From a virus: a DNA stretch of 29,558 bases. The stretch lies in IMG/VR virus record IMGVR_UViG_3300046453_000188, positions 1 to 29,558 of that record. One strand, given 5' to 3'. The notes under the pieces are model-generated. The model was not told where the DNA came from. It worked only from the letters and a program-made list of their open reading frames with translations, and ran no database searches. Below, one piece after another: positions 13,175-29,558 of this stretch; position 1 is the stretch's first letter; each line of letters starts with the position of its first letter. Both the position numbers and the translations under genes were made by a program.

Positions 13175-13809
13175 CAGCCGGCCTCCTCTGCGTCACGAGC
13201 GCAGCGATCGCACGGCAGCGGATATCCGGGGTGGATCTCGCACTCGGGGTCGCGCGTGGGCGTCGGTGTCGGCTTCGACTTCGCCGCGGCCTGTGCCGCG
13301 AGGAGGGCGAACTTCGCATCTCCGCACGCCCGGCAGGATCGGCCGCCCGGGCCTGCCGGCGTGTGCTTCGCGCAGAAGGGGGAGAGCGTGGCGGGATCGA
13401 GCGCGGGCGGCTTGGGCGGGCTGGTGCGAACGCCGATCACGGCATCCGTTCCGCGTGTGTCACGGCGTGACTCCGGTCGTGACTGAGTGCGTGACGCAGT
13501 GCGCGACTTCCGCTTTCGCTCAGTCGCCTTCGCCCGCTCGGTCAGCACGTGGTCGCGCGTCGGCTGGTACTCAGCCCAGTCGTGGAACTGGAAGCCACCG
13601 TCGGCGAGATCCCAGAGGCCCGCGTTCGTGAGCTCCACGGCCGCGTCGCGGTCGGCGAGCATGCGGAGCGCCTGCATCGACACGTGCCCGTCGGTGAGTT
13701 GCTGCGCGCAGTAGGCGCCGGCACGCACCCACAGCGCGACGGCTTCGGCCGAGAGAGGGAGCACCTTCGGGTGAGACCAGAACGAGTCGTCGACCTTGAA
13801 CCACACCAT
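13174..13809 (-). CDS. DnaD-like replication initiation protein carrying 12-bp repeats
   Basis: This 211-aa protein has an N-terminal winged-helix domain typical of phage replisome organisers: MVWFKVDDSFWSHPKVLPLS, ALWVRAGAYCAQQL, NAGLWDLADGGFQFHDWAEY. A basic linker with a 4-residue repeat follows (SRTA/SRTQ/SRPE/SRRD, about 101-116), encoded by four 12-bp DNA repeats. The C-terminus has two Cys/His modules (CAKHTPAGPGGRSCRAC, then CEIHPGYPLPCDRC). It probably melts or marks the phage origin and recruits host helicase. As in lambda O, the origin may lie inside the gene (see 13459-13507). Confidence 0.75.
   Translation of the reverse strand: MVWFKVDDSFWSHPKVLPLSAEAVALWVRAGAYCAQQLTDGHVSMQALRMLADRDAAVELTNAGLWDLADGGFQFHDWAEYQPTRDHVLTERAKATERKRKSRTASRTQSRPESRRDTRGTDAVIGVRTSPPKPPALDPATLSPFCAKHTPAGPGGRSCRACGDAKFALLAAQAAAKSKPTPTPTRDPECEIHPGYPLPCDRCARDAEEAG
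13459..13507. repeat. 12-bp-phased iterons inside the replication gene
   Basis: On the + strand CGTGAC occurs at 13466, 13478 and 13490, and CGCGAC at 13502, all exactly 12 bp apart. The array begins with the palindrome GTCACGGCGTGAC (13459-13471). The same 13-mer recurs at 27926 and 28079 beside the integrase. It is a candidate origin or initiator-binding array. Confidence 0.6.
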
Positions 13810-14417
13810 CAGCCGACCGCCCTCGTGCTGAGGAGGCGTGCGCGCGCGGTGTCGTCAGCGATGGCCTTGAGCCGGAAGTACTCGACCTCGCCGTAGACAT
13901 CGATCATCATCTGCATCGCGACGTCTGCCGCGATCTCCTGGCGGCTCTGGCCTTCGAGGCGGTACCAGCGGCCCTCGTTGGCGAAGTACACCGGCACGCG
14001 GCGTTCGTCGTCCACCCAGACAGGAACCTTCACACCCCACGCCTGCGCCTGAGCGGCCCACTCCGCGTCAGACTCGATCCAGCCGTTGAGGATGGAGTCG
14101 AGCCAGAGCACGTTCGTGAGGCGGTGCTTGTTCTTCCGGCCGCCCATGCCACCCTGGCGGTGCTGTGGGACGATGCGATCGCTCTGCGATCCGCTCATGA
14201 CGCAGGCGCGGCCGCGCAGCGCGTCACGGCGGTCGAGGGCGAGGATGACCCTTGTGGATACGCGGTCTGCCATGAGGTCTCCTTGGTGGCATGCGCACCG
14301 GTACGTGGTGCGGCAGAAGTACGGGGTCTTGCAGCACGACGGGCGGCAGCGGCCGCGGGGATCGTCGTGAGGGAGGGTGTCAGGGGAGGGGCGCGGATGC
14401 GCCAACGACGTGCTCAC
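13809..14417 (-). CDS. HNH-like endonuclease family protein with N-terminal Cys cluster
   Basis: This 202-aa protein starts at GTG 14417 (GTGA overlap with the methyltransferase stop). Residues 24-44 have CRPSCCKTPYFCRTTYRCAC, a zinc-type cluster. The core, ALRGRACVMSGSQSDRIVPQ, HRQGGMGGRKNKHRLTN, VLWLDSILNGWIESD, resembles the beta-beta-alpha HNH nucleases of actinophages, with variant catalytic residues. A second possible start, ATG 14273 (MADRVSTRV), has a strong AAGGAG five bases upstream and would give a Cys-less 154-aa form. It lies beside the cytosine methyltransferase. Confidence 0.7.
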   Translation of the reverse strand: MSTSLAHPRPSPDTLPHDDPRGRCRPSCCKTPYFCRTTYRCACHQGDLMADRVSTRVILALDRRDALRGRACVMSGSQSDRIVPQHRQGGMGGRKNKHRLTNVLWLDSILNGWIESDAEWAAQAQAWGVKVPVWVDDERRVPVYFANEGRWYRLEGQSRQEIAADVAMQMMIDVYGEVEYFRLKAIADDTARARLLSTRAVG

Positions 14418-16147
14418 GCGGCGACTCCGAGGGCCTCGTTGACGTCGTCGCCGATCCAGTGGGCGACGTTCACCGCGACGGCGTTGCCGGCGCCCTGCGT
14501 CGTCTCGCTCTTGTTCGCCGCCGACGTGTCGTACTCGTCCCGGAACCGCTGCGCGCGCAGATGCTCCTTGGGGCCGAGCATCCGGAATCGGACGTCGTCG
14601 AGGTCGAACGGTAGGTCGCCCTCGTACATCGACTTCGGTCGAGTCCGCTCGGGCACGACGAGAGAGACGTTGGGACGCGCCACCATGCCGGGCAGGGGCT
14701 CATCGACGCTCTTATTCATATGCTCGATGCGCGCGTAGTCCAGTCCGCCGTGATGCTTCGAGAGGAACGCTCCAGGCGGGACGGTGAGCCCGTGGTGACT
14801 GCCGCCTGCGGTGATGGCCGACAGAGCTTCGTTCTCGACGCCGCGGACGCTGCTCGTGCCGTAGAGCTCAGCGATGTAGGGCGGGACCACGAGGTTGTGA
14901 TGCGCGCCACCGGCCGTGATTGCGCCGAGCGCTGTCGCGGCCGGGTCGCTGTTGCGTCGCTCAGATCCTGCCTGCTCCCCGTACTGGTGGGAGATGAACG
15001 GCGGGAAGGCGAGTGCGTCGCCGATCTTCGTGGAGCGCGTCGGCAGCGGTCCCGCGGTGAGTTCGCGGGCGCGGGCGTCACCGTCGTGGTTCACGGCGAG
15101 CATGTAGGGCGGGACTGCGATGCCGTCGCCGGTGCCGCCGGCCTGGCGTGCCATCAGCGGCATGAGCGAGTCCCACGCGCGGTAGTACGAGTCGGGCGCA
15201 CCGAAGCGCGGGTGGCGCGGGTTCGCTGCGTCCCAGGTCTGCCCCGAGCTCGCGACGACAGCGGGTCGGGCGAACATCCTCAGGCCGACCTCAATGCGCC
15301 GAAGGGTCGCTGCGCTCAGCTTCCGCATGCCCAGCGACGGGCGGTCGCCGAGACGGATGCCGAGATCGGACCAGTCGATGACGGACGCCGCAGGCAGCAC
15401 GTAAGGCTCCACGACCTGCAGCGCGTGCGTCCCGCCGTCGCAGACGTAGACGTACTGCGTGCCATATTTCCCGAACCGCGGCGCGCCCTCGGGCGTCGGC
15501 TTCTTCCAGTGCTGGCGGGTCGACACGACGGAGTCGCACTGCGGGCACCATGCTGGCGGGGCGGGCTCGAGGCGAGGCTGTGGGACGCCCTTCCGAGTTA
15601 GCGCGATGTAGATCCGGTCACGCCACTGCCCGGCCGGCGCGTTCGTGTCAGAGTAGATGTGCGCCGCGTTGACGTTGACGATCTTCCAGCGGTAGCCGAG
15701 CGACTCCCACATGCGCAGCCAGGGCTCGAACAGTGGCCAGGACGCGACCTCGACGACGTTCTCAATCAGGATCACGTCGAAGTTGCGGGCCTCGGCGGCG
15801 CGCAGCGGGTCGTACATGGTCGCTCGGGAACGGACGCCGGCTTCGGGCGGCAGAGGGTCGTCACCGAACAGCGTCGGCGCGGATGCCGTGACCCTCTTGC
15901 GACCACCGGCCGGCGAGTGCCACGTGCACTCGGGGGAGGCCCAGAGCACGGGTGCGTGCGGAAGTCGTCGCATGTCGTAGCCGGACAGATCCCCCTGGAC
16001 GTGATCGGCGTCCCGATGGTTCGCGGAGTGAACCTGGATAGCCTTCTCCCAGTGGTTGTAGGCGGAGACGAGCGTGAACCCGGCCTCCACGAGTCCGCTG
16101 CTTGCGCCGCCGAATCCGGCGAAGAAGTCGAGAAATGGCAGGCTCAT
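14414..16147 (-). CDS. C5-cytosine DNA methyltransferase
   Basis: This 577-aa protein has motif I FFAGFGGAS (8-16), motif IV WASPECTWHS with PEC instead of PCQ and the catalytic Cys at 74, motif VI IENVVEV (E129), motif VIII QWRDRIYIAL and C-terminal motif X QGAGNAVAVNVA. The long middle part contains three related blocks (AxxAITAGGxHHxLxVPP), probably the target-recognition domain. It methylates cytosine C5 in phage DNA, likely to resist host restriction; the target site is unknown. No cognate restriction gene is visible. ATGA overlap with the helicase-methyltransferase gene indicates joint expression. Confidence 0.9.
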   Translation of the reverse strand: MSLPFLDFFAGFGGASSGLVEAGFTLVSAYNHWEKAIQVHSANHRDADHVQGDLSGYDMRRLPHAPVLWASPECTWHSPAGGRKRVTASAPTLFGDDPLPPEAGVRSRATMYDPLRAAEARNFDVILIENVVEVASWPLFEPWLRMWESLGYRWKIVNVNAAHIYSDTNAPAGQWRDRIYIALTRKGVPQPRLEPAPPAWCPQCDSVVSTRQHWKKPTPEGAPRFGKYGTQYVYVCDGGTHALQVVEPYVLPAASVIDWSDLGIRLGDRPSLGMRKLSAATLRRIEVGLRMFARPAVVASSGQTWDAANPRHPRFGAPDSYYRAWDSLMPLMARQAGGTGDGIAVPPYMLAVNHDGDARARELTAGPLPTRSTKIGDALAFPPFISHQYGEQAGSERRNSDPAATALGAITAGGAHHNLVVPPYIAELYGTSSVRGVENEALSAITAGGSHHGLTVPPGAFLSKHHGGLDYARIEHMNKSVDEPLPGMVARPNVSLVVPERTRPKSMYEGDLPFDLDDVRFRMLGPKEHLRAQRFRDEYDTSAANKSETTQGAGNAVAVNVAHWIGDDVNEALGVAA

Positions 16148-18771
16148 GCTGCGCTCCCTTCGAGGTCGAGAAGGTCGAACAGCGTGGGTGCGTTCGCTTC
16201 GTTGTCGTGACGGGTGAGGTAGACGACCGAGTCGGCAGTGCTCACGGGATTGAGTTCGGATCCGAAACCGCGGCGTCCCTGGCGCACCGCTTCGAGGACC
16301 GTGGAGCCGAGACCGCTGAACGGGTCCCCGACCAGCTCGCCGGGGTTCGAGTACATGCGGATCAGGCGGCGGGGGATGTCGAGCGGGAACGGACAGATGT
16401 GCGCCTCGACCTCGCGCTTGCGCTGCTCGCTGTTGAGCGTGTCGATGCGGAGCACGTCGGTCCAGATGTCATCGCGCCACGAGCCGGGGACGAGAGACGC
16501 GAACGTGCCCGGGAGCGCGTTGGCGGCGGCGAGGCGGTCAGCGAGGGCCACGTGCGCGTCGTAGTCGTAGACCGTGCGCTCGGACTGGGCGGTGAACAGC
16601 TTTGAGCGGACGCCGACCTCGAGCGCGGCGAGATCGTCGCCGGTCAGCAGGCGGTCGCCGCCGGTGCGCCATTCGGCCGCGGCGTCGATCTGCCACTGAC
16701 CTACCGAGTAGTCAGCCTTGTCCTTCGACACGGGGAGGTCGGCGTATCCGCGGGAGCGGTTCGTCTGCGGCTTGTGGAAGAGCAGGACGTACTCGGGGGA
16801 GCCGACGCCCATCTTCGAGTGGTCCTTCGTCATCTCGGAGTACGAGAGGCGGTAGGTCTGGTTGTTCTCGCGGACGACGTCGGTGGTGACGGTGATCATG
16901 CCGAAGTAGTCGAACCCGTGGCCGGTGTAGTGCGCGATCGCTTCGGCGTGCATCGTGTCGAACGTGTAGACGCCGGTGCCGGTGACGGATCCGTAGAGCG
17001 GGAAGTCCTTCACGTGCACCGCGAGGATCCGGCCGGGCATGAGCGCACGATGCAGCGACGGAGTCAGGTAGTCCATCTGCCACCAGAACTGGCCGTTGTC
17101 GTCGACGTGGCCGAAGTCGGCGTAGTTGGGCGAGTACTCGTACTTGCCGCCGAAGGGGATCGACGTGACGATCAGCCCCATCGAGTCGGAGGAGACGTGA
17201 TCACGCCACTCGACGACCGAGTCGTTCAGCACGATCTCCCAGTGCTGGCCTGACCATGCCTCGCGCTCGACTCCCATGGCGCGGGCGAGCTCGGTGGAGA
17301 CGGCGGTCGCGTCAAGGCCGAACTCGCGGAGGATGTCGCTCATCGTGTCGGTGAGCGCGTCGTCCTCCTGCCACTTCGTGAGCAGGTTGTCGCGGACGTC
17401 GGACTCGGTCTCGCCGTAGAGCAGATGCACGGTGCACGCCCGCCGCTGTCCGAAGCGGTGGATGCGGTGGATCGCCTGCACGGTCTGCTCGTACTTGTGC
17501 GTGACGCCGACGAACACGGCCGTCGAGCACTGCTGCAGGTTCAGGCCGCGGCCGAGCATCATCGGCTTCCCGATCAGCGCGTAAGTGTGCCCGCTGAGCC
17601 ACGTGCCGAGCCGCTGCTCCACTTCCTCATCCGAGAGCGAACCGTGGATCGAGGAGAACGACATGTTGGCCTTGCGGAGCGCCGACTCGAGCGCGTCCTG
17701 CTCGTCGTTCAGATCGCACCACAGGATGATCTGCGTCGTGGAGCGGTCGATCGCGTGCGCCGCCACGACCTCCATCGCGCGGGCGATCCGAGCCTCCAGC
17801 GTGTGCCGCTTCTCGCGCGCCGACTCGACGGCGGACTTCGCGCCGCCGCGCACGAGAACGCCCTGACCGTCCTTCTCGATCTGGTCGGAGAGGATGCCGA
17901 CCTCGACCTCATCCCAGACCACCTCGAGCGGTGGCAGCGCGTAGCCCTCGTCGGAGTAGCCAAGGTCGGAAGGCCGCTGGATGAAGCACGCCCACGTGTT
18001 CAGCCACAGCATGAACTCGCGCCTTTTGTGCGGGTGGATCTTGAGGTTGCCCGCCTTCGAGGAGTCCCGCTTGAAGAACCGCGTGAGCGCCTGGCCGGTG
18101 TCCATGATGCCGAGGAAGCCGGCGTAGTGGATGAGCTCCTTGTGTCGGTTCGGCGCCGGCGTCGCGGTCGCGACGAACCGGTACGTCACGTCGTTGAACA
18201 GCGGGAGGAACCGCTGATACGTCTCGGAGCCGAACGAGCGCAGCACGGCCGCCTCGTCGAGCGACGCCGCGACGAACAGCGACAGGTCGAACTTGCCATC
18301 CCGCACGGACTCGTAGTTCGTGACGTAGAGACCAGACCATGACTGGTCGACCTCGGCCGTCGATCGGACGAACCGCACCTCGGTGTCGAGGAGGTCGCGT
18401 CCGTCGGCGATGATGTCGAAGCGCACGCCGAGAGGGGCCACGATGAGCCCGCGGCGGGTCTCGATACCGAACGCGTCGCGGCTGCCGCGGATCGCGGGGC
18501 CGTGCTCGACGATCAGTCGCAGGATCTCCAACTGCATGACGGACTTGCCGAGGCCGTAGCGGGCGAAAATCGCGCGTCGTCCGCCCTTCACCGCCCACTT
18601 GACGATGTCGGCCTGGTGGGGCTTGAAGTGCTCGTGACCGGGGCGCATGATCGGCGACAGCCATTCGTCGCGGACATCGAACCCGAAGGTCCGGTCGAAC
18701 GCGACCTTCTCGCGGAGGAACTCGTCGTACGGGCGACCGTCGTTACCAGTCGCCAGCGTGAGGAGAGTCAC
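16144..18771 (-). CDS. SNF2-type helicase fused to N6-adenine/N4-cytosine DNA methyltransferase
   Basis: This 875-aa protein has two domains. Residues ~45-480 are a superfamily 2 ATPase: Walker A region GLGKSVMQLE (73-82), DEAA (172-175), TATPAPN (202-208) and motif VI QAIHRIHRFGQ (432-442), all SNF2-like. Residues ~500-875 are a beta-class amino-methyltransferase with the catalytic motif as TSIPFGG (536-542; usually S/DPPY/F) before the AdoMet motif DPFSGLGST (816-824). Such fusions occur in actinophages and mobile elements. A helicase moving along DNA and methylating it resembles Type I/III or ISP restriction enzymes without a nuclease. The start overlaps the J-domain gene stop by 4 bp. Confidence 0.9.
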   Translation of the reverse strand: MTLLTLATGNDGRPYDEFLREKVAFDRTFGFDVRDEWLSPIMRPGHEHFKPHQADIVKWAVKGGRRAIFARYGLGKSVMQLEILRLIVEHGPAIRGSRDAFGIETRRGLIVAPLGVRFDIIADGRDLLDTEVRFVRSTAEVDQSWSGLYVTNYESVRDGKFDLSLFVAASLDEAAVLRSFGSETYQRFLPLFNDVTYRFVATATPAPNRHKELIHYAGFLGIMDTGQALTRFFKRDSSKAGNLKIHPHKRREFMLWLNTWACFIQRPSDLGYSDEGYALPPLEVVWDEVEVGILSDQIEKDGQGVLVRGGAKSAVESAREKRHTLEARIARAMEVVAAHAIDRSTTQIILWCDLNDEQDALESALRKANMSFSSIHGSLSDEEVEQRLGTWLSGHTYALIGKPMMLGRGLNLQQCSTAVFVGVTHKYEQTVQAIHRIHRFGQRRACTVHLLYGETESDVRDNLLTKWQEDDALTDTMSDILREFGLDATAVSTELARAMGVEREAWSGQHWEIVLNDSVVEWRDHVSSDSMGLIVTSIPFGGKYEYSPNYADFGHVDDNGQFWWQMDYLTPSLHRALMPGRILAVHVKDFPLYGSVTGTGVYTFDTMHAEAIAHYTGHGFDYFGMITVTTDVVRENNQTYRLSYSEMTKDHSKMGVGSPEYVLLFHKPQTNRSRGYADLPVSKDKADYSVGQWQIDAAAEWRTGGDRLLTGDDLAALEVGVRSKLFTAQSERTVYDYDAHVALADRLAAANALPGTFASLVPGSWRDDIWTDVLRIDTLNSEQRKREVEAHICPFPLDIPRRLIRMYSNPGELVGDPFSGLGSTVLEAVRQGRRGFGSELNPVSTADSVVYLTRHDNEANAPTLFDLLDLEGSAA

Positions 18772-21857: not shown

Positions 21858-22294
21858 CGGAGCCCCATCCCGACGGAGGCGCTGATCCGCTTGCCGATGT
21901 TCATGAGGCCGAAGCTGCGGTTCTGGACGGCCTTCTGCATCTCCTCGGCGTAGCGGAGCTTCTCCTTCGCGAGGTTCAGCTGGTGACGCTCGTCCTTCGT
22001 CTTGGAAGTCGCGTACTGCCGCGCGAGCACCGCGCCGGCCTTCTCATGCATGACCATGAGGTCGGAGAATCGGCCCTCGTACGTCTCCTCGGCGCGGTGG
22101 CGGTCTTCGTAGAGGAGGACGATCACGTGCGCGATGTGGTCGAGGGTGTCGGCGATGTCCGTGATCATCTGATCGATCTGCCCGAGCATCGGCGCTCCAT
22201 AGATGCCAGCCGGAATGGCGAGCATCTCGCGCACGGCGCGCTCCGCGGCGGACAGGCGCAGCTCGCCTGTGCTGCCGTCGACGATGTCAGTCAC
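21854..22294 (-). CDS. Hypothetical 146-aa helical protein
   Basis: The start at GTG 22294 (VTDIVDGSTGELRLSAAERA) has GGGAGGTG just upstream and overlaps recT by 8 bp. It is helical throughout (MLGQIDQMITDIADTLDHIA, RHRAEETYEGRFSDLMVMHE). It is likely a coiled-coil partner in the recombination cluster. No family is recognised. Confidence 0.65.
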   Translation of the reverse strand: MTDIVDGSTGELRLSAAERAVREMLAIPAGIYGAPMLGQIDQMITDIADTLDHIAHVIVLLYEDRHRAEETYEGRFSDLMVMHEKAGAVLARQYATSKTKDERHQLNLAKEKLRYAEEMQKAVQNRSFGLMNIGKRISASVGMGLR

Positions 22295-23267
22295 GCGGCA
22301 CCTCCCCGGCTGCCACAGCGGCGTCATACCGGACGGCTTCCGCGGCCTCGTACTCCGCTTCGGTCATGCCCGCTGAGGACGCAGCCGGGGCATCCGGCGC
22401 GCTTTCCGGGTCCGGCTCAACCGCGTCTGCGGGAGCAGCAGCCGCGTCCTCAGCGGGGGCCTGTGCCTCTTCGTCGACCACGTCAGCGTCCACCGTGTTC
22501 GCCTCGCGGGAGAGAAGTCCGGCGCGCGCCAGCCATGCGGCGCGCAGCTTGTCGGTGCCTTCGCCACTGGCCGCGAGGCGCTCTGCGATGGCGTCGAGTG
22601 CGGCTCGATCCTCTGCTCCGGCAATGAGGTCGCCCCACGGCTCGGAGTCCGCGGCAGTGATGGCGTCGGTGGTGTCGACGTCGTCCTGGAAGTCCTCGGG
22701 CGTGTACAGCCCGGCGAGTTCCATCGGGAACAGGCGGCGGAGGGCGTGGGACTCGGCGCGGATGCCGAGCATGTGCGCGGGGCGCTTGTCCCAGTTGTTC
22801 TTCGCGCCGCCGAACTCGGCGAATGTGACGGTCTGCTCGATCGGGCGACTGATGCCCTTTCGGTAGACGCGGACCCGGGCGGCAAAGGGAGTCTTTGGCG
22901 GCACGGTTGTCCAGGGGCCATCCGCTGCGGCTTGCCACTCGATCGGGTCCTGGCCGTCGTACTGGCCAGTGCGCTGCGCGACTACGCGCATGCCGTCGAT
23001 GCCGACGAGGACAGTCCACTTCCCGCCCATGAGGGCGGCGTAGATCTGCTTCGCGGTCGGATCCAGACCAGTACGAGCGCACGCGCCGATGAACGCGGCC
23101 ATGATGCCGGAAGGGGCATAGGAGCGCACCGCGACCGTCTGGCCAGGGTTCTGCGGGTCCGGGCGCTGATCGATCCAGGTCAGCCCGGCGAACTCCATCA
23201 TCGCCGCGGTGTCAGCGTTCCAGGACTCGGGCCGAACGGACGTAGGTAGGGCGAGGTCGGTCGACAT
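22287..23267 (-). CDS. recT: RecT-family single-strand annealing protein
   Basis: This 326-aa protein starts at ATG 23267, sharing one base with the exonuclease stop. It has MMEFAGLTWIDQRPDPQNPG, FIGACARTGLDPTAKQIYAA, GGKWTVLVGIDGMRVVAQRT, WTTVPPKTPFAARVRVYRKG and MLGIRAESHALRRLFP, all characteristic of the RecT/Bet core. The C-terminal ~100 residues are acidic and Ala-rich (EEAQAPAEDAAAAPADAVEP). It anneals ssDNA produced by the neighbouring YqaJ exonuclease, for phage replication and recombination. A gene order of exonuclease then RecT is typical. Confidence 0.9.
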   Translation of the reverse strand: MSTDLALPTSVRPESWNADTAAMMEFAGLTWIDQRPDPQNPGQTVAVRSYAPSGIMAAFIGACARTGLDPTAKQIYAALMGGKWTVLVGIDGMRVVAQRTGQYDGQDPIEWQAAADGPWTTVPPKTPFAARVRVYRKGISRPIEQTVTFAEFGGAKNNWDKRPAHMLGIRAESHALRRLFPMELAGLYTPEDFQDDVDTTDAITAADSEPWGDLIAGAEDRAALDAIAERLAASGEGTDKLRAAWLARAGLLSREANTVDADVVDEEAQAPAEDAAAAPADAVEPDPESAPDAPAASSAGMTEAEYEAAEAVRYDAAVAAGEVPRD

Positions 23268-23872
23268 CAGAAGGGGGTCCTTTCGAGGAGTGCGGCGTTC
23301 ACGCCGTCGAGTACTTCGTGCGCGATCGGCACGATGAGGTCGAGTGCGGCCACGATCTGGGGGTGGTCGCGGTCGAAGTGGAGAGTCTGAGGGTCGCGGC
23401 GGAGACGCCACCCCTCGGGGCCGAACGCCCGGACGAGTTCGCCCCAGACGAAATCTGCGCCCTCGTACTCGGGGAGGCAGTGCAGTTGCCACGCCATCTG
23501 ACGGATCTCGCGCGGGGTCGGACCAGTCACGACCTTGTTGTGCTTGGCCTTGGTCTCGGCGATCCGACATTTCACGGTGCCGTCGACGGTCGCGCCGAAT
23601 TGCTTCTCCTCCGGGTGGTGGATCAGCAGGCTGTTCGGCTCGGCACCGGCCCAAGCGAGCAGCAGTGGCTCCCAGCGGACGCCGGAGCGGGTCGCATCGT
23701 TGCCCTTGAAATCGCGCGGGGCGAGCATCTGCCGGACGTACGTCTCGACGCTCTCCGGCTTCGCGAATGCGCCGGCCTGGTAGGAACCGATCACGCGGGC
23801 GTGCACGCGGTCCCATGACGACGGATCAGCGGTGTCCGCGAGGGTTCGATCGAGCAGCGCGAGGGCACTCAT
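23267..23872 (-). CDS. YqaJ-type (lambda exonuclease family) recombinase exonuclease
   Basis: This 201-aa protein starts at ATG 23872. The PD-(D/E)xK nuclease core is seen as GVRWEPLLLAWAG, then KQFGATVDGTVKCRIAETKA (D and E-x-K). Upstream, RVIGSYQAGAFAKPESVETY matches the start of YqaJ proteins. It degrades one strand of double-stranded DNA ends, giving the substrate for RecT, with which it overlaps by 1 bp. Confidence 0.85.
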   Translation of the reverse strand: MSALALLDRTLADTADPSSWDRVHARVIGSYQAGAFAKPESVETYVRQMLAPRDFKGNDATRSGVRWEPLLLAWAGAEPNSLLIHHPEEKQFGATVDGTVKCRIAETKAKHNKVVTGPTPREIRQMAWQLHCLPEYEGADFVWGELVRAFGPEGWRLRRDPQTLHFDRDHPQIVAALDLIVPIAHEVLDGVNAALLERTPF

Positions 23873-24147
23873 CAGTTGAGCCCGAACGCCGACTTGAGCA
23901 CGATGATCTCGGCCGCCTGAGCCATGAGGCGGTGCCACTCGGCCTCGGGCTGAGACAGCCAGATCAGCGACACCCGACCTTCGCTATCGACACCGACCCG
24001 CCACAGGTGCTTGCTGTGCATGACGGCCGTCTCGATGAGCAGGTCCACATGGGTGCGGATGTGTTCGGTGCGCTCGGTGCCACAGTTGCACTCGTCAGCG
24101 TGCATGGTCGCGAACTCGACGACCGTCATGTCAGGTGCGGTGGACAT
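23872..24147 (-). CDS. Hypothetical 91-aa protein
   Basis: The start at ATG 24147 shares one base with the ATPase stop. The sequence MSTAPDMTVVEFATMHADEC, NCGTERTEHIRTHVDLLIET, KHLWRVGVDSEGRVSLIWL suggests a mixed alpha/beta fold. No family is recognised. Position between ATPase and exonuclease suggests a recombination accessory. Confidence 0.6.
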   Translation of the reverse strand: MSTAPDMTVVEFATMHADECNCGTERTEHIRTHVDLLIETAVMHSKHLWRVGVDSEGRVSLIWLSQPEAEWHRLMAQAAEIIVLKSAFGLN

Positions 24148-25400
24148 CAGGCCACCTCGTCGTCGGCCAGTGCGCCGTCGCGGACGGTGAAGCCGATGCT
24201 GCGAGATTCGTCACGGTCACGCTCGACGAGGACCGTGAACTGCCGGTCCTCGGCGAGGTCCGCGATCGCGGCGAGCGAGTCGGAGTCGAGCAGGTCGCCG
24301 TCCTTGACGATGACGAGCTTGAGCTTCGGGTCCCCGGCGGTGGCGATCGCGAACGCGATGCGGCGGCGCATGGCCGAGTTGACCTGACTGAACGGGACGC
24401 CGTCGAACGTGACGCCGTCCTCGTCGACCGAGAGGCCGTCGACGGGGAACTCGGCGGCTGCGAGCCCGTCGCGCTTCGTCTTCTCGATCGCGTCGAGCGC
24501 GACCTGTGCGCCCTCTTGCTGGTGCTGGGCGGCGGCGAGGTCCGCAGCTGTCCGCTGATATGCCTTCCGGTCCCGCACGGCCTGGTTGACCGCTTCCAGC
24601 CCGCGAAGGCGGTCCTGCAGCGGTTCCACGGGGATCTGCGCAGGGAGGCTGTTCAGCCGCTCGGCGGCGGTCTGCTGGCGCTCCTGCGCGGCGGCCTGCT
24701 GGCGCTGGAGATCCTCGATCTGACGAGCGATCTCGTCGTAGCGTGCGGCTGCCGCGTCGTATTCTGCGGATGCGTCATGCCAGGTGCGGTCGATGCGCTG
24801 CGCCTCCTGGATCTCCGCGAGGACATCCGCCGACGCGGTCTCTTCTTCGGGGGTGTCCTCGGCGGGCTTCGGGAGGGATGCGAGCGCTCCCGAGAGGCGC
24901 TTGACCTCGCGGCCAGCCTCAAGTCGGCGTTGCTCGGCACCCGCCTTCTCGCGGATGAGCGTGTCGAGATCGAAGGGCAGATCGACCTTCTCGAGGAGGG
25001 CCTCTCGCTGCTTCTTCTCGTCGAGGTTCAGGAACGCGACGGGGTCGAAGATCGCACCGCCGAGAAGGGATGCGACGACCTCGGACGGCTTGGAGTACTT
25101 CGCGCCGTCGAGAGTTTCGACGGTCAGAGTGCCGGCGCTGCCGTTCTTCGTCCAGCGGCGCGTGATCTTGAGGTCGAGGTCCTGGTCGACGTACTCGGCG
25201 TGCGCCTCGTCGGCGCCCTCACGGATCGGCTTCGGGGTGAGCTTCGACCCTCGCGGGTCGAACAGTTCGGTCAGACCGTCGATGAAGGACGACTTGCCCG
25301 CGCCGTTCCCGCCGGCGATGAGCACGAGTCGACCAGCGGGGGAGAGCGAGATCTCTCGCACGCCCTTGTAGTCGCGCACGGTGAACGTCTGAGCGCTCAT
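24147..25400 (-). CDS. SMC/RecF-like AAA ATPase with coiled coil
   Basis: This 417-aa protein has Walker A GGNGAGKSS (30-38) in an SMC-like start (MSAQTFTVRDYKGVREISLS). A coiled coil covers about residues 160-310 (EKAGAEQRRLEAGREVKRLS, IARQIEDLQRQQAAAQERQQ). The C-terminal lobe has PFSQVNSAMRRRIAFAIATA and KLVIVKDGDLLD, where Walker B would be. The canonical signature (LSGGQ) and the D-E pair are not clear, so it may be a degenerate or phage-specific SbcC-like protein. It lies upstream of exonuclease and RecT, so a role in DNA end processing is likely. Confidence 0.8.
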   Translation of the reverse strand: MSAQTFTVRDYKGVREISLSPAGRLVLIAGGNGAGKSSFIDGLTELFDPRGSKLTPKPIREGADEAHAEYVDQDLDLKITRRWTKNGSAGTLTVETLDGAKYSKPSEVVASLLGGAIFDPVAFLNLDEKKQREALLEKVDLPFDLDTLIREKAGAEQRRLEAGREVKRLSGALASLPKPAEDTPEEETASADVLAEIQEAQRIDRTWHDASAEYDAAAARYDEIARQIEDLQRQQAAAQERQQTAAERLNSLPAQIPVEPLQDRLRGLEAVNQAVRDRKAYQRTAADLAAAQHQQEGAQVALDAIEKTKRDGLAAAEFPVDGLSVDEDGVTFDGVPFSQVNSAMRRRIAFAIATAGDPKLKLVIVKDGDLLDSDSLAAIADLAEDRQFTVLVERDRDESRSIGFTVRDGALADDEVA

Positions 25401-26762: not shown

Positions 26763-26772
26763 GTTGTGCAAC
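26763..26772. promoter_or_regulatory. Operator copy 1 (GTTGTGCAAC)
   Basis: This is a near-palindrome (GTTG-TG-CAAC). It lies downstream of the predicted leftward start site and upstream of the Cro-like gene. It is one of three identical copies between the divergent regulators. Confidence 0.65.
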
Positions 26773-26795
26773 CAGCGATTGCTGGCCTGCAACCG

Positions 26796-26824
26796 AAGCT
26801 AACACCCCTTCGACTGTTGTGCAA
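26796..26824 (-). promoter_or_regulatory. Leftward early promoter
   Basis: The -35 is TTGCAC (26824-26819), the spacer is 17 bp and the -10 is TAGCTT (26801-26796), read on the minus strand. The -35 is embedded in operator copy 2, so a bound repressor would block it. It would drive the operon 26742-7636. Confidence 0.6.
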
Positions 26825-26825
26825 C
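26816..26825. promoter_or_regulatory. Operator copy 2 (GTTGTGCAAC)
   Basis: This identical copy overlaps the -35 of the leftward promoter. Its distance to copy 1 is 53 bp and to copy 3 is 47 bp. Confidence 0.65.
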
Positions 26826-26849
26826 TCCAAATTGGATTGCTGCACTCCC

Positions 26850-26878
26850 TTGCGCTGTTGTTGTTGTGCAACTACGAT
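26850..26878 (+). promoter_or_regulatory. Rightward repressor promoter, leaderless
   Basis: The -35 is TTGCGC (26850-26855), the spacer is 17 bp and the -10 is TACGAT (26873-26878). The -10 ends 7 bases before ATG 26886, and no Shine-Dalgarno is present. Operator copy 3 fills the second half of the spacer. Confidence 0.65.
26863..26872. promoter_or_regulatory. Operator copy 3 (GTTGTGCAAC)
   Basis: This identical copy lies between the -35 and -10 of the repressor promoter, directly touching the -10. Binding here would shut off repressor synthesis, as expected for autoregulation or Cro action. Confidence 0.65.
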
Positions 26879-27364: not shown

Positions 27365-27808
27365 TTGAGACAGCTTCTACGCCACGCCACGCAGCTTGGC
27401 TATAGCGTGCGCGTCTGGGATCTCGGTGATTCGATGTCCGGCCAGACCGACACCCTGGACCGAGTCATCACCCTGAACCTCGGGCTGACGCTGCCGGAGC
27501 ATCGATCGACTCTCGCTCATGAGTGCGGTCATGCTTACTACGGCCATGACTGCACCGACCCCGTGACGGAGCGACGCGCTCGGAAGTACGCTGCGACGTT
27601 GCTTATCGAGCCCAGCGAGTACGCGCGCCTGGAGCGCGTCAACCATGATCAGCACTGGCTCGCTGAGGAGTTCTCGGTGACGGTCGACATCATCGAGGAC
27701 TACGAGGAACTGTGCCTCACGCCCCTTCGCGGCGTGACCTACGCGAATGCGCGTGACGGCGTCGGGCAGTGGTCGTTCATGTCGCAGCGAGTGGGAGCAC
27801 TGGCATGA
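27365..27808 (+). CDS. immA: ImmA/IrrE-family metallopeptidase
   Basis: This 147-aa protein starts at TTG 27365, with AGGAAG 6 bases upstream. RSTLAHECGHAYYGHDC contains HECGH (HExxH zinc motif), followed by ARKYAATLLIEPSEYARLER, the typical downstream helix with a third ligand region. Proteins of this family cleave the neighbouring repressor on a stress signal, triggering induction (as ImmA does with ImmR in ICEBs1). Adjacent location to the repressor supports the same role here. Confidence 0.85.
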   Translation: MRQLLRHATQLGYSVRVWDLGDSMSGQTDTLDRVITLNLGLTLPEHRSTLAHECGHAYYGHDCTDPVTERRARKYAATLLIEPSEYARLERVNHDQHWLAEEFSVTVDIIEDYEELCLTPLRGVTYANARDGVGQWSFMSQRVGALA

Positions 27809-28110
27809 ATCAGTTATCCACAGGGGGAGTGCGCCACGCGCGCACGCGATCCCCTCTCGTAAGAGAGGGGATATGGGTCGGGTCGGGTCGGGGAAGCCGG
27901 ACTCACGCGGAGACTCACGCCAGGAGTCACGGCGTGACCGCACCGCCAATCCCCGGTAAATCAGGGTCTTTGGCGGTTCGCGTCGCCTCCATCAGAGGTG
28001 TCTGCTCATCGCCCGATTCGTGCCGGCGGGACCGAAACGGAGACGAACGGCGGACTCTCGATGTGAAGGACGCCGGGAGTCACGGCGTGACGACGAGGGG
28101 AACGGTATGA
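27805..28110 (+). CDS. Possible 101-aa gene bridging immA and integrase
   Basis: The frame opens with an ATG overlapping the immA stop (ATGA, 27805-27808) and closes with a TGA overlapping the integrase start (ATGA, 28107-28110). The product is basic and low in structure (SRGS-like repeats THAETHARSHGVTAPP and GSHGVTTRG). It carries all the DNA repeats of the region, so it may be an accidental open frame in GC-rich DNA. No family is recognised. Confidence 0.3.
   Translation: MNQLSTGGVRHARTRSPLVREGIWVGSGRGSRTHAETHARSHGVTAPPIPGKSGSLAVRVASIRGVCSSPDSCRRDRNGDERRTLDVKDAGSHGVTTRGTV
27814..27822 (+). promoter_or_regulatory. Perfect DnaA box (TTATCCACA)
   Basis: This matches the strict bacterial DnaA-box consensus TTATCCACA, in an otherwise GC-rich sequence. 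It lies just after immA and 27 bp before the hairpin. One box alone does not make an origin, but its neighbours (G-run motif, iterons, dyad) raise interest. Confidence 0.55.
27849..27872. terminator. Hairpin downstream of the repressor-immA unit
   Basis: ATCCCCTCTC (27849-27858), loop GTAA, GAGAGGGGAT (27863-27872) form a perfect 10-bp stem with a tetraloop. No T-tract follows. It could terminate repressor-immA transcription before the integrase. Confidence 0.7.
27875..27893 (+). other. G-quadruplex motif
   Basis: Three GGGTC units followed by GGGG (27875-27893) give four runs of at least three G separated by 2-nt TC loops. This meets the strict G4 pattern. It lies directly after the hairpin at 27849-27872. 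Confidence 0.7.
27900..27938 (+). repeat. Three 12-bp-spaced iterons upstream of the integrase
   Basis: GACTCACGC at 27900 and 27912 and GAGTCACGG at 27924 are exactly 12 bp apart. The third is part of the palindrome GTCACGGCGTGAC (27926-27938), found again at 28079-28091 and in the replication gene at 13459. Confidence 0.6.
27939..27980. other. 42-bp dyad, candidate attP or origin element
   Basis: The left arm CGCACCGCCAA (27939-27949) and the reverse complement of the right arm (27970-27980) agree at 10 of 11 positions. The 20-bp interior is asymmetric and less GC-rich (GGTAAATCAGGG at its centre). Size and architecture resemble serine-integrase attP sites such as that of phiC31. The dyad ends 126 bp before the integrase start. 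Confidence 0.4.
28079..28091 (+). repeat. Third copy of GTCACGGCGTGAC
   Basis: This exact copy of the 13-mer also seen at 13459 and 27926 lies 15 bp before the integrase ATG. It overlaps the likely integrase translation or transcription control region. Confidence 0.6.
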
Positions 28111-29558
28111 CTGCTCGAAGTGCTATCGAGGGCTCGAAGCCCCCACAGCGACGGCGCGGTCTCGGCATGATTCGAGTGTCCAAAGAGCGCGACGGGATGA
28201 CCTCGCCCGATATCCAGAGGAACGCCATCGAGTCGTTCGCGGCCTCGAACGCCATCGACATAGTCGACTGGGTCGAAGGGATCGACGAGTCAGGGTCTCG
28301 CGTCCGGTCTGCATGGTGGCCGAGACTGGACCAGTCGGTCGAACGGCTCAAGCGCGGCGAGATCGACGTCATCGTGGTGTGGAAGTTCTCGCGCACCGGG
28401 CGCAATCGGCTCAAGTGGGCTATCGCGATCGACAGCGTCGACACCGCCGGCGGCGCGATCCTTTCCGCCACTGAGCCGATCGAGACCGCTACGGCCTCGG
28501 GTAGGTTCGCGCGAGGGATGCTCGGCGAGCTCAACGCCTACCAAGCCGACCTCATTGGGGAAGGCTGGAAGGACTCGCACGCCCGGCGATTCCGCGAAGG
28601 CAAGCCGATCAACGGCCGCCCGCGGTTCGGGTACGTCTACGACAAGGAGTCGAAGTCATTCGCGCCGGATCCCGTGAGCGGTCCGATCCTCGCGGCGGCC
28701 TATCGGCGGTACATCGCGGGGGAGAGCTTCTACGCGCTCATCGAATGGCTGAACAAGGGCCCGACCCGGCCGGTCGCCGGATACGGGCCGAGGGGCGGCG
28801 ACGGTCTATGGACGCAGGAGACGCTACGACGTGTTCTCGACGCCGGATTCGGTGCCGGTGTCATCACGTACCGCGGCGAGGTGAAACAGGGCGTCCACGA
28901 GCCTGTGATCGACGGAGACGAGTGGGAAGCCTACCTAGAGACGCGCAATCGCCGCCGCGTCAACCGGCGCACCGAGCGCTCTGAATACACCTACTCCGGC
29001 ATCCTCTGGTGCACCTGCGGGTCAAAGATGCACGGCAGCACTTCCGGCGGAGACGCGTCGCGGGCCTATCGGTGTCGCTACGGCACCGAGAAGCGCGCTC
29101 ATGCGGGCGGCTACATCCTCGAGAAGCAGATCGACAAAGCCGTGCTGGCATGGCTGAGCGAGAGCCGGGACCGGGCGCACAGCGAGATCGCGGAGAGCAT
29201 CAGTCGCCTCCCGGAGGCCGCGCCGGTAGACGCTACCGCCGAACTCGAGCGACGTCTCTCGGAGCTCGCCAACAAGCAGGTCGTGCTCGCTGAACAGCGC
29301 CTCATCATGGGGCTCCCGCAGGCCTCGTACGAGACGCTCCGGGACCGGTGGGCGGCGGAGGCAGCGGCACTGGAACAGGAGCTTCGGACGTCGAAGAAGC
29401 GACGGGTAGCACCCGTGACGGTGCTACCCGTGCTCCTCGACCGCTGGGATGATCTCGAAGTCGCCGAGCGACGCGAGTACATCCGGTCGCTCGTTGCTCA
29501 GATCGTGATTACGCCCGGAACCCGCGCCTCTCAGCGCATCGCCATCATCCCGCACTAG
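28107..29558 (+). CDS. int: Large serine integrase
   Basis: This 483-aa protein starts at ATG 28107 with GAGGGG upstream, in preference to a longer frame from 28020. The catalytic domain has MIRVSKERDGMTSPDIQRNA (nucleophile Ser25), then VIVVWKFSRTGRN with active-site Arg residues. The recombinase domain follows (GKPINGRPRFGYVYDKESK), then a zinc ribbon (LWCTCGSKMHG...YRCRYG) and a coiled coil (ELERRLSELANKQVVLAEQR). It inserts phage DNA at attB and, with a directionality factor, excises it. TAG at 29556-29558 coincides with the window end. Confidence 0.95.
   Translation: MTARSAIEGSKPPQRRRGLGMIRVSKERDGMTSPDIQRNAIESFAASNAIDIVDWVEGIDESGSRVRSAWWPRLDQSVERLKRGEIDVIVVWKFSRTGRNRLKWAIAIDSVDTAGGAILSATEPIETATASGRFARGMLGELNAYQADLIGEGWKDSHARRFREGKPINGRPRFGYVYDKESKSFAPDPVSGPILAAAYRRYIAGESFYALIEWLNKGPTRPVAGYGPRGGDGLWTQETLRRVLDAGFGAGVITYRGEVKQGVHEPVIDGDEWEAYLETRNRRRVNRRTERSEYTYSGILWCTCGSKMHGSTSGGDASRAYRCRYGTEKRAHAGGYILEKQIDKAVLAWLSESRDRAHSEIAESISRLPEAAPVDATAELERRLSELANKQVVLAEQRLIMGLPQASYETLRDRWAAEAAALEQELRTSKKRRVAPVTVLPVLLDRWDDLEVAERREYIRSLVAQIVITPGTRASQRIAIIPH

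Follow-up and report, generated by a model that had tools for sequence, protein, structure and literature searches.

Introduction

In phage lambda and the Stx phages the iterons of the replication origin lie in the middle of the O gene, where they are bound by the initiator, and extra iterons merely lengthen the linker of the protein (PMC7466680). In rep of pSK41 the origin boxes are likewise central, in the linker that follows the winged-helix domain at the N-terminus, and the protein can do without the residues encoded by ori (PMC5703833). Among actinophages, RepA and RNA-based origins have been described for extrachromosomal mycobacterial prophages, with a lambda-like position within repA suggested as one possibility, and the same 2020 study calls mycobacteriophage replication systems poorly characterised for lytic growth (PMC7157519). 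Our literature search, which covered mostly papers available without subscription and is to that extent a limited negative, found no description in actinophages of the origin type reported here.

The DNA analysed, referred to as the window, is a virus record of 29,558 bases whose end coincides with the stop codon of an integrase gene, and it is probably incomplete. Among the nearest relatives of the window are a genome bin of Microbacterium and phages of Microbacterium and Gordonia, which makes a Microbacterium-like actinobacterium the probable host. As in lambda O, the window carries iterons inside what by sequence is an initiator gene, and as in the RepA_N type of pSK41, the origin of the whole family appears to lie in the central linker. 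Unlike lambda O, the window's initiator has no lambda O Pfam match, the family has a C-rich pentamer tract, often with a TNAC-loop hairpin, there is a full copy outside the gene, and no AT-rich region accompanies this integrase-side copy. Unlike RepA_N plasmid initiators, it has no RepA_N Pfam match, belongs to phages of high-GC hosts, and has a different tract and hairpin. The extrachromosomal mycobacterial prophage origins are also actinophage origins, but they are maintenance origins from other phages, with no repeated motifs reported, and are dispensable for lytic growth (PMC7157519). Also close are the actinophage initiators of PHROG 2447 / 3926 / 9474, including Pickles13 gp41 and Malibo gp71, which belong to the same protein family as the initiator of the window; in those two the module stays in the gene, whereas in the clade of the window it stands beside the integrase.

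Results

The hexamer CGTGAC occurs at 13466, 13478 and 13490 and CGCGAC at 13502, with a spacing of exactly 12 bp. These repeats read TCACG in gene sense, since the minus strand carries the replication gene, and the linker reads TCGCG-12-TCACG-12-TCACG-12-TCACGCCGTGAC. The adjoining 13-mer palindrome GTCACGGCGTGAC, with 6-bp arms and one centre base, is found exactly at 13459, 27926 and 28079 and nowhere else in the window, where its reversed control pattern has 0 matches. With at most 2 mismatches it has 10 matches against 2.9 expected, a number reached in 0 of 100 shuffles. The preliminary description had reported the four units, the recurrence of the 13-mer at two places near the integrase and three further TCACG units there with the same spacing, and all of these were borne out (Table 1).

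Table 1. Coordinates of the initiator gene, its repeats and the integrase-side features along the window
Feature	Position	Strand	Remarks
Replication initiator gene, 211 aa	13174..13809	-	Winged-helix-like N-domain (about residues 1-110), iteron-coding linker, short C-terminal part
Outlying half-site GTGA, +23 from palindrome	13437..13441	-	From the register table; also in L004, L099 and L022-L024
In-gene iteron array	13459..13507	-	Half-sites -36, -24, -12 and 0, and palindrome GTCACGCCGTGAC (gene sense); kept in L004 and L099
DnaA-box-like 9-mer TTATCCACA	27814..27822	+	Sole TTRTCCACA in the window; TTGTCCACA at the equivalent place in G013
Hairpin	27849..27872		10-bp stem, TTAC loop on minus strand (ATCCCCTCTC-TTAC-GAGAGGGGAT); 9-bp stem of changed sequence in G013
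C-rich pentamer tract	27875..27893	-	(CCCGA)n on minus strand, GGGTC x3 + GGGG on plus strand; 51 bp to palindrome, conserved in G001 and G013
Integrase-side iterons	27903..27938		TCACG at 27903, 27915 and 27927 (12-bp spacing); palindrome 27926-27938
Second integrase-side palindrome GTCACGGCGTGAC	28079..28091		153 bp from the first; GTCACAGTGTGAC at equal 153-bp distance in G001
Serine integrase gene	28107..29558	+	phrog_95, PF00239; downstream of the origin module; tyrosine integrase instead in G013

Upstream of the integrase, the non-coding stretch 27814-27938 holds a complete module of iterons, GGGTC tract, hairpin and DnaA-box-like 9-mer, and its minus-strand order of iterons, tract and hairpin matches that of the in-gene origins. 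Of these parts the window's in-gene copy has just the iterons; it lacks the tract and hairpin present in many relatives. The second integrase-side palindrome ends 16 bp before the start codon of the integrase, and the counterpart in G001, GTCACAGTGTGAC, differs from it by a symmetric change and therefore fits the expectation for a dyad site. At the integrase side no AT-rich unwinding region was found (GC 60-72%), and the lowest-GC 60-mers of the window lie elsewhere; GC skew and AT content were uninformative as pointers to a working origin. The DnaA-box-like site is a single 9-mer of a kind that is rare near the gene in other family members (4/85). With only 4 boxes near 85 genes, a DnaA box was rejected as a general origin part of the family. 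In G013 (L118:4272, 4465) two DnaA-box-like 9-mers, TTGTCCACA and TTATCCACA, flank the first integrase-side palindrome. An ImmA/IrrE-like metalloprotease gene (27365-27808; PF06114, phrog_87) lies between an HTH gene and the origin module.

From 97 collected members of the initiator family, 85 non-redundant ones were used. A motif search in related phages had been proposed in the preliminary description as a check, and linker iterons were indeed present family-wide in these relatives. The repeats are lineage-specific (GTCAC/GTGAC, GTAAC/GTTAC, GAAGCA/TGCTTC, GTTCGC/GCGAAC and others), and in 56 of the 85 they are followed directly by a C-rich tandem tract of 5- or 6-bp units, mostly CCCGA, the other 29 having no tract under the definition used. 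Unit length and copy number differ widely across the family, the longest tract seen being the 11-fold CCCGTA hexamer tract of the initiator gene L036:7956-8777. Within the genes there are 48 strict tracts, (CCCGN)3+CC, every one of them on the coding strand; 1.57 Mb of flanking DNA holds 2, one on the integrase side of the window and the other just past the short gene L060. Several members have CCATT, CCAGT or CCACT tracts with no CCC runs, and a G-quadruplex was thus rejected as the common denominator of the tract.

A perfect hairpin with a stem of at least 7 lies within 50 nt after the tract in 28 of the 56 tract-bearing members, compared to 1.5% of random segments, and the other half have no perfect hairpin. 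In a loop-anchored test, stems of at least 6 enclosed the TNAC loop 15 times in 63 after the tract and 2 times in 8920 elsewhere (p=1e-31). The stem sequence varies between members while pairing is retained. Three members with a short gene, L042, L083 and L090, have their iterons and tract 3' of the stop codon, where they are not read by that gene. The in-gene arrangement recurs in gp41 of Microbacterium phage Pickles13, and the genes behind gp41 carry DnaC-like loader and DnaB-like helicase annotations. Malibo gp71 has iterons and tract; the CCCGN tract is absent from Atcoo gp64, Dori gp81 and SF3 gp560. By comparison of these genes, the linker array looks like an intragenic origin of the kind found in lambda O or pSK41 rep.

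The repeats also encode a repetitive peptide, and the preliminary description had allowed that conserved peptide sequence might explain them in full. In the window, TCA accounts for 4.3% of Ser codons across the phage genes, yet within the SRxx repeat it encodes 3 of 4 serines (p=3e-4). When synonymous codons were resampled for the same peptide, the probability was 1.5e-4 for three TCACG units spaced by 12 bp, 0.0025 for the palindrome and about 1e-5 for both together. These two tests were tailored to the motif after it had been seen, and therefore the family evidence weighs more; a generic test of 7-mer repeats against synonymous shuffles was not significant for the gene of the window alone (p=0.32). 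Across the family, 48 of the 85 linkers exceed synonymous-codon shuffles at p<=0.05 (Fisher combined 6e-47). A 6-mer is present at least 3 times in 78 linkers and stands in more than one reading frame in 69 of these 78; in L008, for example, GAAGCA recurs every 11 bp and so passes through all three frames. As the copies stand in several reading frames, a peptide repeat cannot be their cause, and for the family as a whole the codon shuffles and frame shifts contradict the peptide explanation. This suggests that the repetitive PDPTR and SRxx linkers of many such proteins are a by-product of origin DNA.

The clade of the window comprises the window, G001 (via L004) and the Microbacterium bin G013 (via L099), with an SH-aLRT value of 97, and lies near L022 and L024; deeper forks of the tree are uncertain because there are few alignment columns. 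None of the three members has an in-gene tract, and all three have, upstream of the integrase, a tract 51 bp from the palindrome, the hairpin, half-sites and a DnaA-box-like 9-mer. All three also retain, inside the gene, the palindrome and the half-sites at -24, -12, 0 and +23. The non-coding module aligns to the in-gene origins of L022-L024 over the palindrome, GGCTTCCCCGACCCGACCC, the hairpin and the following bases. In a scan of IMG/VR from which the window's own record was excluded, the 19-mer GGCTTCCCCGACCCGACCC was found in only four contigs, on the integrase side in G001 and in the gene in L022-L024. Viral contigs were also scanned for CCCGTACCCGTACCCGTACC, for which the matches listed are to be read as "at least". 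The records of L022-L024 have one palindrome each and no TTRTCCACA, and the window and G001 each have three palindromes, with the integrase-side pair 153 bp apart, and one DnaA-box-like 9-mer. The non-coding copy of G013 carries a 2-nt indel. The neighbour of the module is a tyrosine integrase (PF00589) in G013 and a serine integrase in the window and G001, yet the module is in place in all of them; kept beside an unrelated integrase type, it is therefore not an integrase element.

The initiator protein matches phrog_2447, a replication initiation protein, over residues 1-203 (E=1.2e-44). No Pfam family was matched at E<=0.001, and so neither a lambda O-type nor a RepA_N model; a sequence search of the PDB gave nothing better than E=1.4, and Foldseek with the predicted structure gave no match at E<=0.001. 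AlphaFold predicts an N-domain of winged-helix type (pLDDT about 90-98) with a long helix at residues 85-110, and the iteron-coded linker is uncertain in the model. The predicted N-domain superimposes on the RepA_N structures 4pql, 5kbj, 4pt7 and 4pta with Z scores of 6.4-6.9 and an rmsd of 3.0-3.1 over 76-77 residues, values that many unrelated winged helices reach as well, and its match to DnaD 2vn2 is weak (Z 5.5), with no Pfam match. All that speaks for the "DnaD-like" label of the preliminary description is a weak winged-helix resemblance. The weak structural matches, to unrelated winged helices as well as to those of RepA_N, DnaD and ORC, fit an initiator and leave kinship unproved.

Several other genes of the window were noted. 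Directly upstream of the initiator cluster, at 14414-18771, a C5 cytosine methylase gene (PF00145) adjoins a fused helicase/N6-N4 methylase gene (PF00271, PF01555). A gene for a RecT-like annealing protein (22287-23816) lies near that of a 417-aa ATPase (24147-25400), which matches phrog_1499 and has a weaker SbcC-like match.

Discussion

We consider it likely that the repeats are binding-site arrays of the initiator, and that an origin which normally lies in the gene is represented in this clade by a complete non-coding module next to the integrase. On the sequence evidence the in-gene and integrase-side modules are homologous; initiator binding, origin activity, the mechanism of melting and any role of DnaA are what we infer from this. 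The preliminary description had proposed a lambda O-like initiator gene that contains its own binding sites, plus a second binding locus. The core of this proposal is supported by the comparison of 85 relatives; as all parts are present at the integrase side and the in-gene copy is incomplete, the integrase-side locus probably serves as the working origin and not just as a second site. Most simply, the ancestor of the clade would have gained the non-coding module by copying or transfer from the gene, and the gene would then have lost its tract and hairpin. The reverse direction, from non-coding DNA into the gene, is made less likely by the wide occurrence of in-gene modules among family members.

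In the mechanism that we propose, the family origin would lie in the linker that connects the winged-helix-like DNA-binding domain to the C-terminal part, with lineage-specific iterons and palindromes followed by a C-rich tract of period 5 or 6 and often by a TNAC-loop hairpin. In the lytic phase the initiator would bind the iterons and the palindrome, and the tract and hairpin DNA next to the array would be opened or structured, allowing entry of helicase loader and helicase. In the window, the in-gene iterons and the palindrome at 28079 may serve as accessory, titrating or autoregulatory sites. We suggest only tentatively, and with rather less conviction than the reading as initiator-binding arrays, that the C-rich tract and TNAC-loop hairpin form an undescribed GC-rich opening or helicase-loading module which replaces the AT-rich element and can move out of the gene together with the iterons.

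The alternative that survives best, though we think it unlikely, is that the main origin is still the array in the gene, or that this array forms half of a bipartite origin, with the integrase-side copy as a regulatory or enhancer site for the same initiator. Retention of the in-gene half-sites and palindrome throughout the clade speaks for this, and because of it the in-gene sites are probably still used; against it, the tract and hairpin found in much of the family are absent from the gene and both present at the integrase side.

A good deal less probable is a role as operators through which the initiator or a lysogeny repressor would control transcription of the integrase. The closeness of the palindrome at 28079 to the integrase start codon, and its symmetric change in G001, would be in keeping with such control, but the module is equally in place beside the unrelated tyrosine recombinase of G013, and operators leave the tract, the hairpin and the homology to in-gene origins unexplained. 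A better operator candidate is also available in the three exact TTGTGCAAC repeats (26764, 26817, 26864; region 26764-26872) between divergent HTH genes, which are likely the repressor operators of an immunity switch.

DNA directly upstream of a serine integrase is a usual place of attP, where the integrase-side sequences indeed lie. That they belong to an attachment or partition site rather than an origin is nevertheless very improbable, as they are kept beside the tyrosine integrase of G013 and share their sequence with in-gene origins; moreover, the integrase stop codon is the end of the window and G001 stops near the end of its integrase, which, if these are trimmed proviruses, suggests that att lies beyond. 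Least credible of all is that the repeats merely reflect a low-constraint linker peptide (SRxx, PDPTR) with no role at the DNA level: linkers are commonly repetitive and the generic test on the window gene was not significant, yet copies change frame, the repeats are not reproduced by synonymous shuffles, the SRxx repeat favours the rare Ser codon TCA, and the module is also found in non-coding DNA, where the indel of G013 argues against conserved translation.

If the reading as initiator-binding arrays with a relocated origin is right, many actinophage initiator genes would carry a recognisable origin signature, and the clade of the window would offer a natural experiment on an origin separated from its gene. 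The DNA pieces concerned are short and directly testable for binding and minireplicon activity, and they show where to look for the start of replication.
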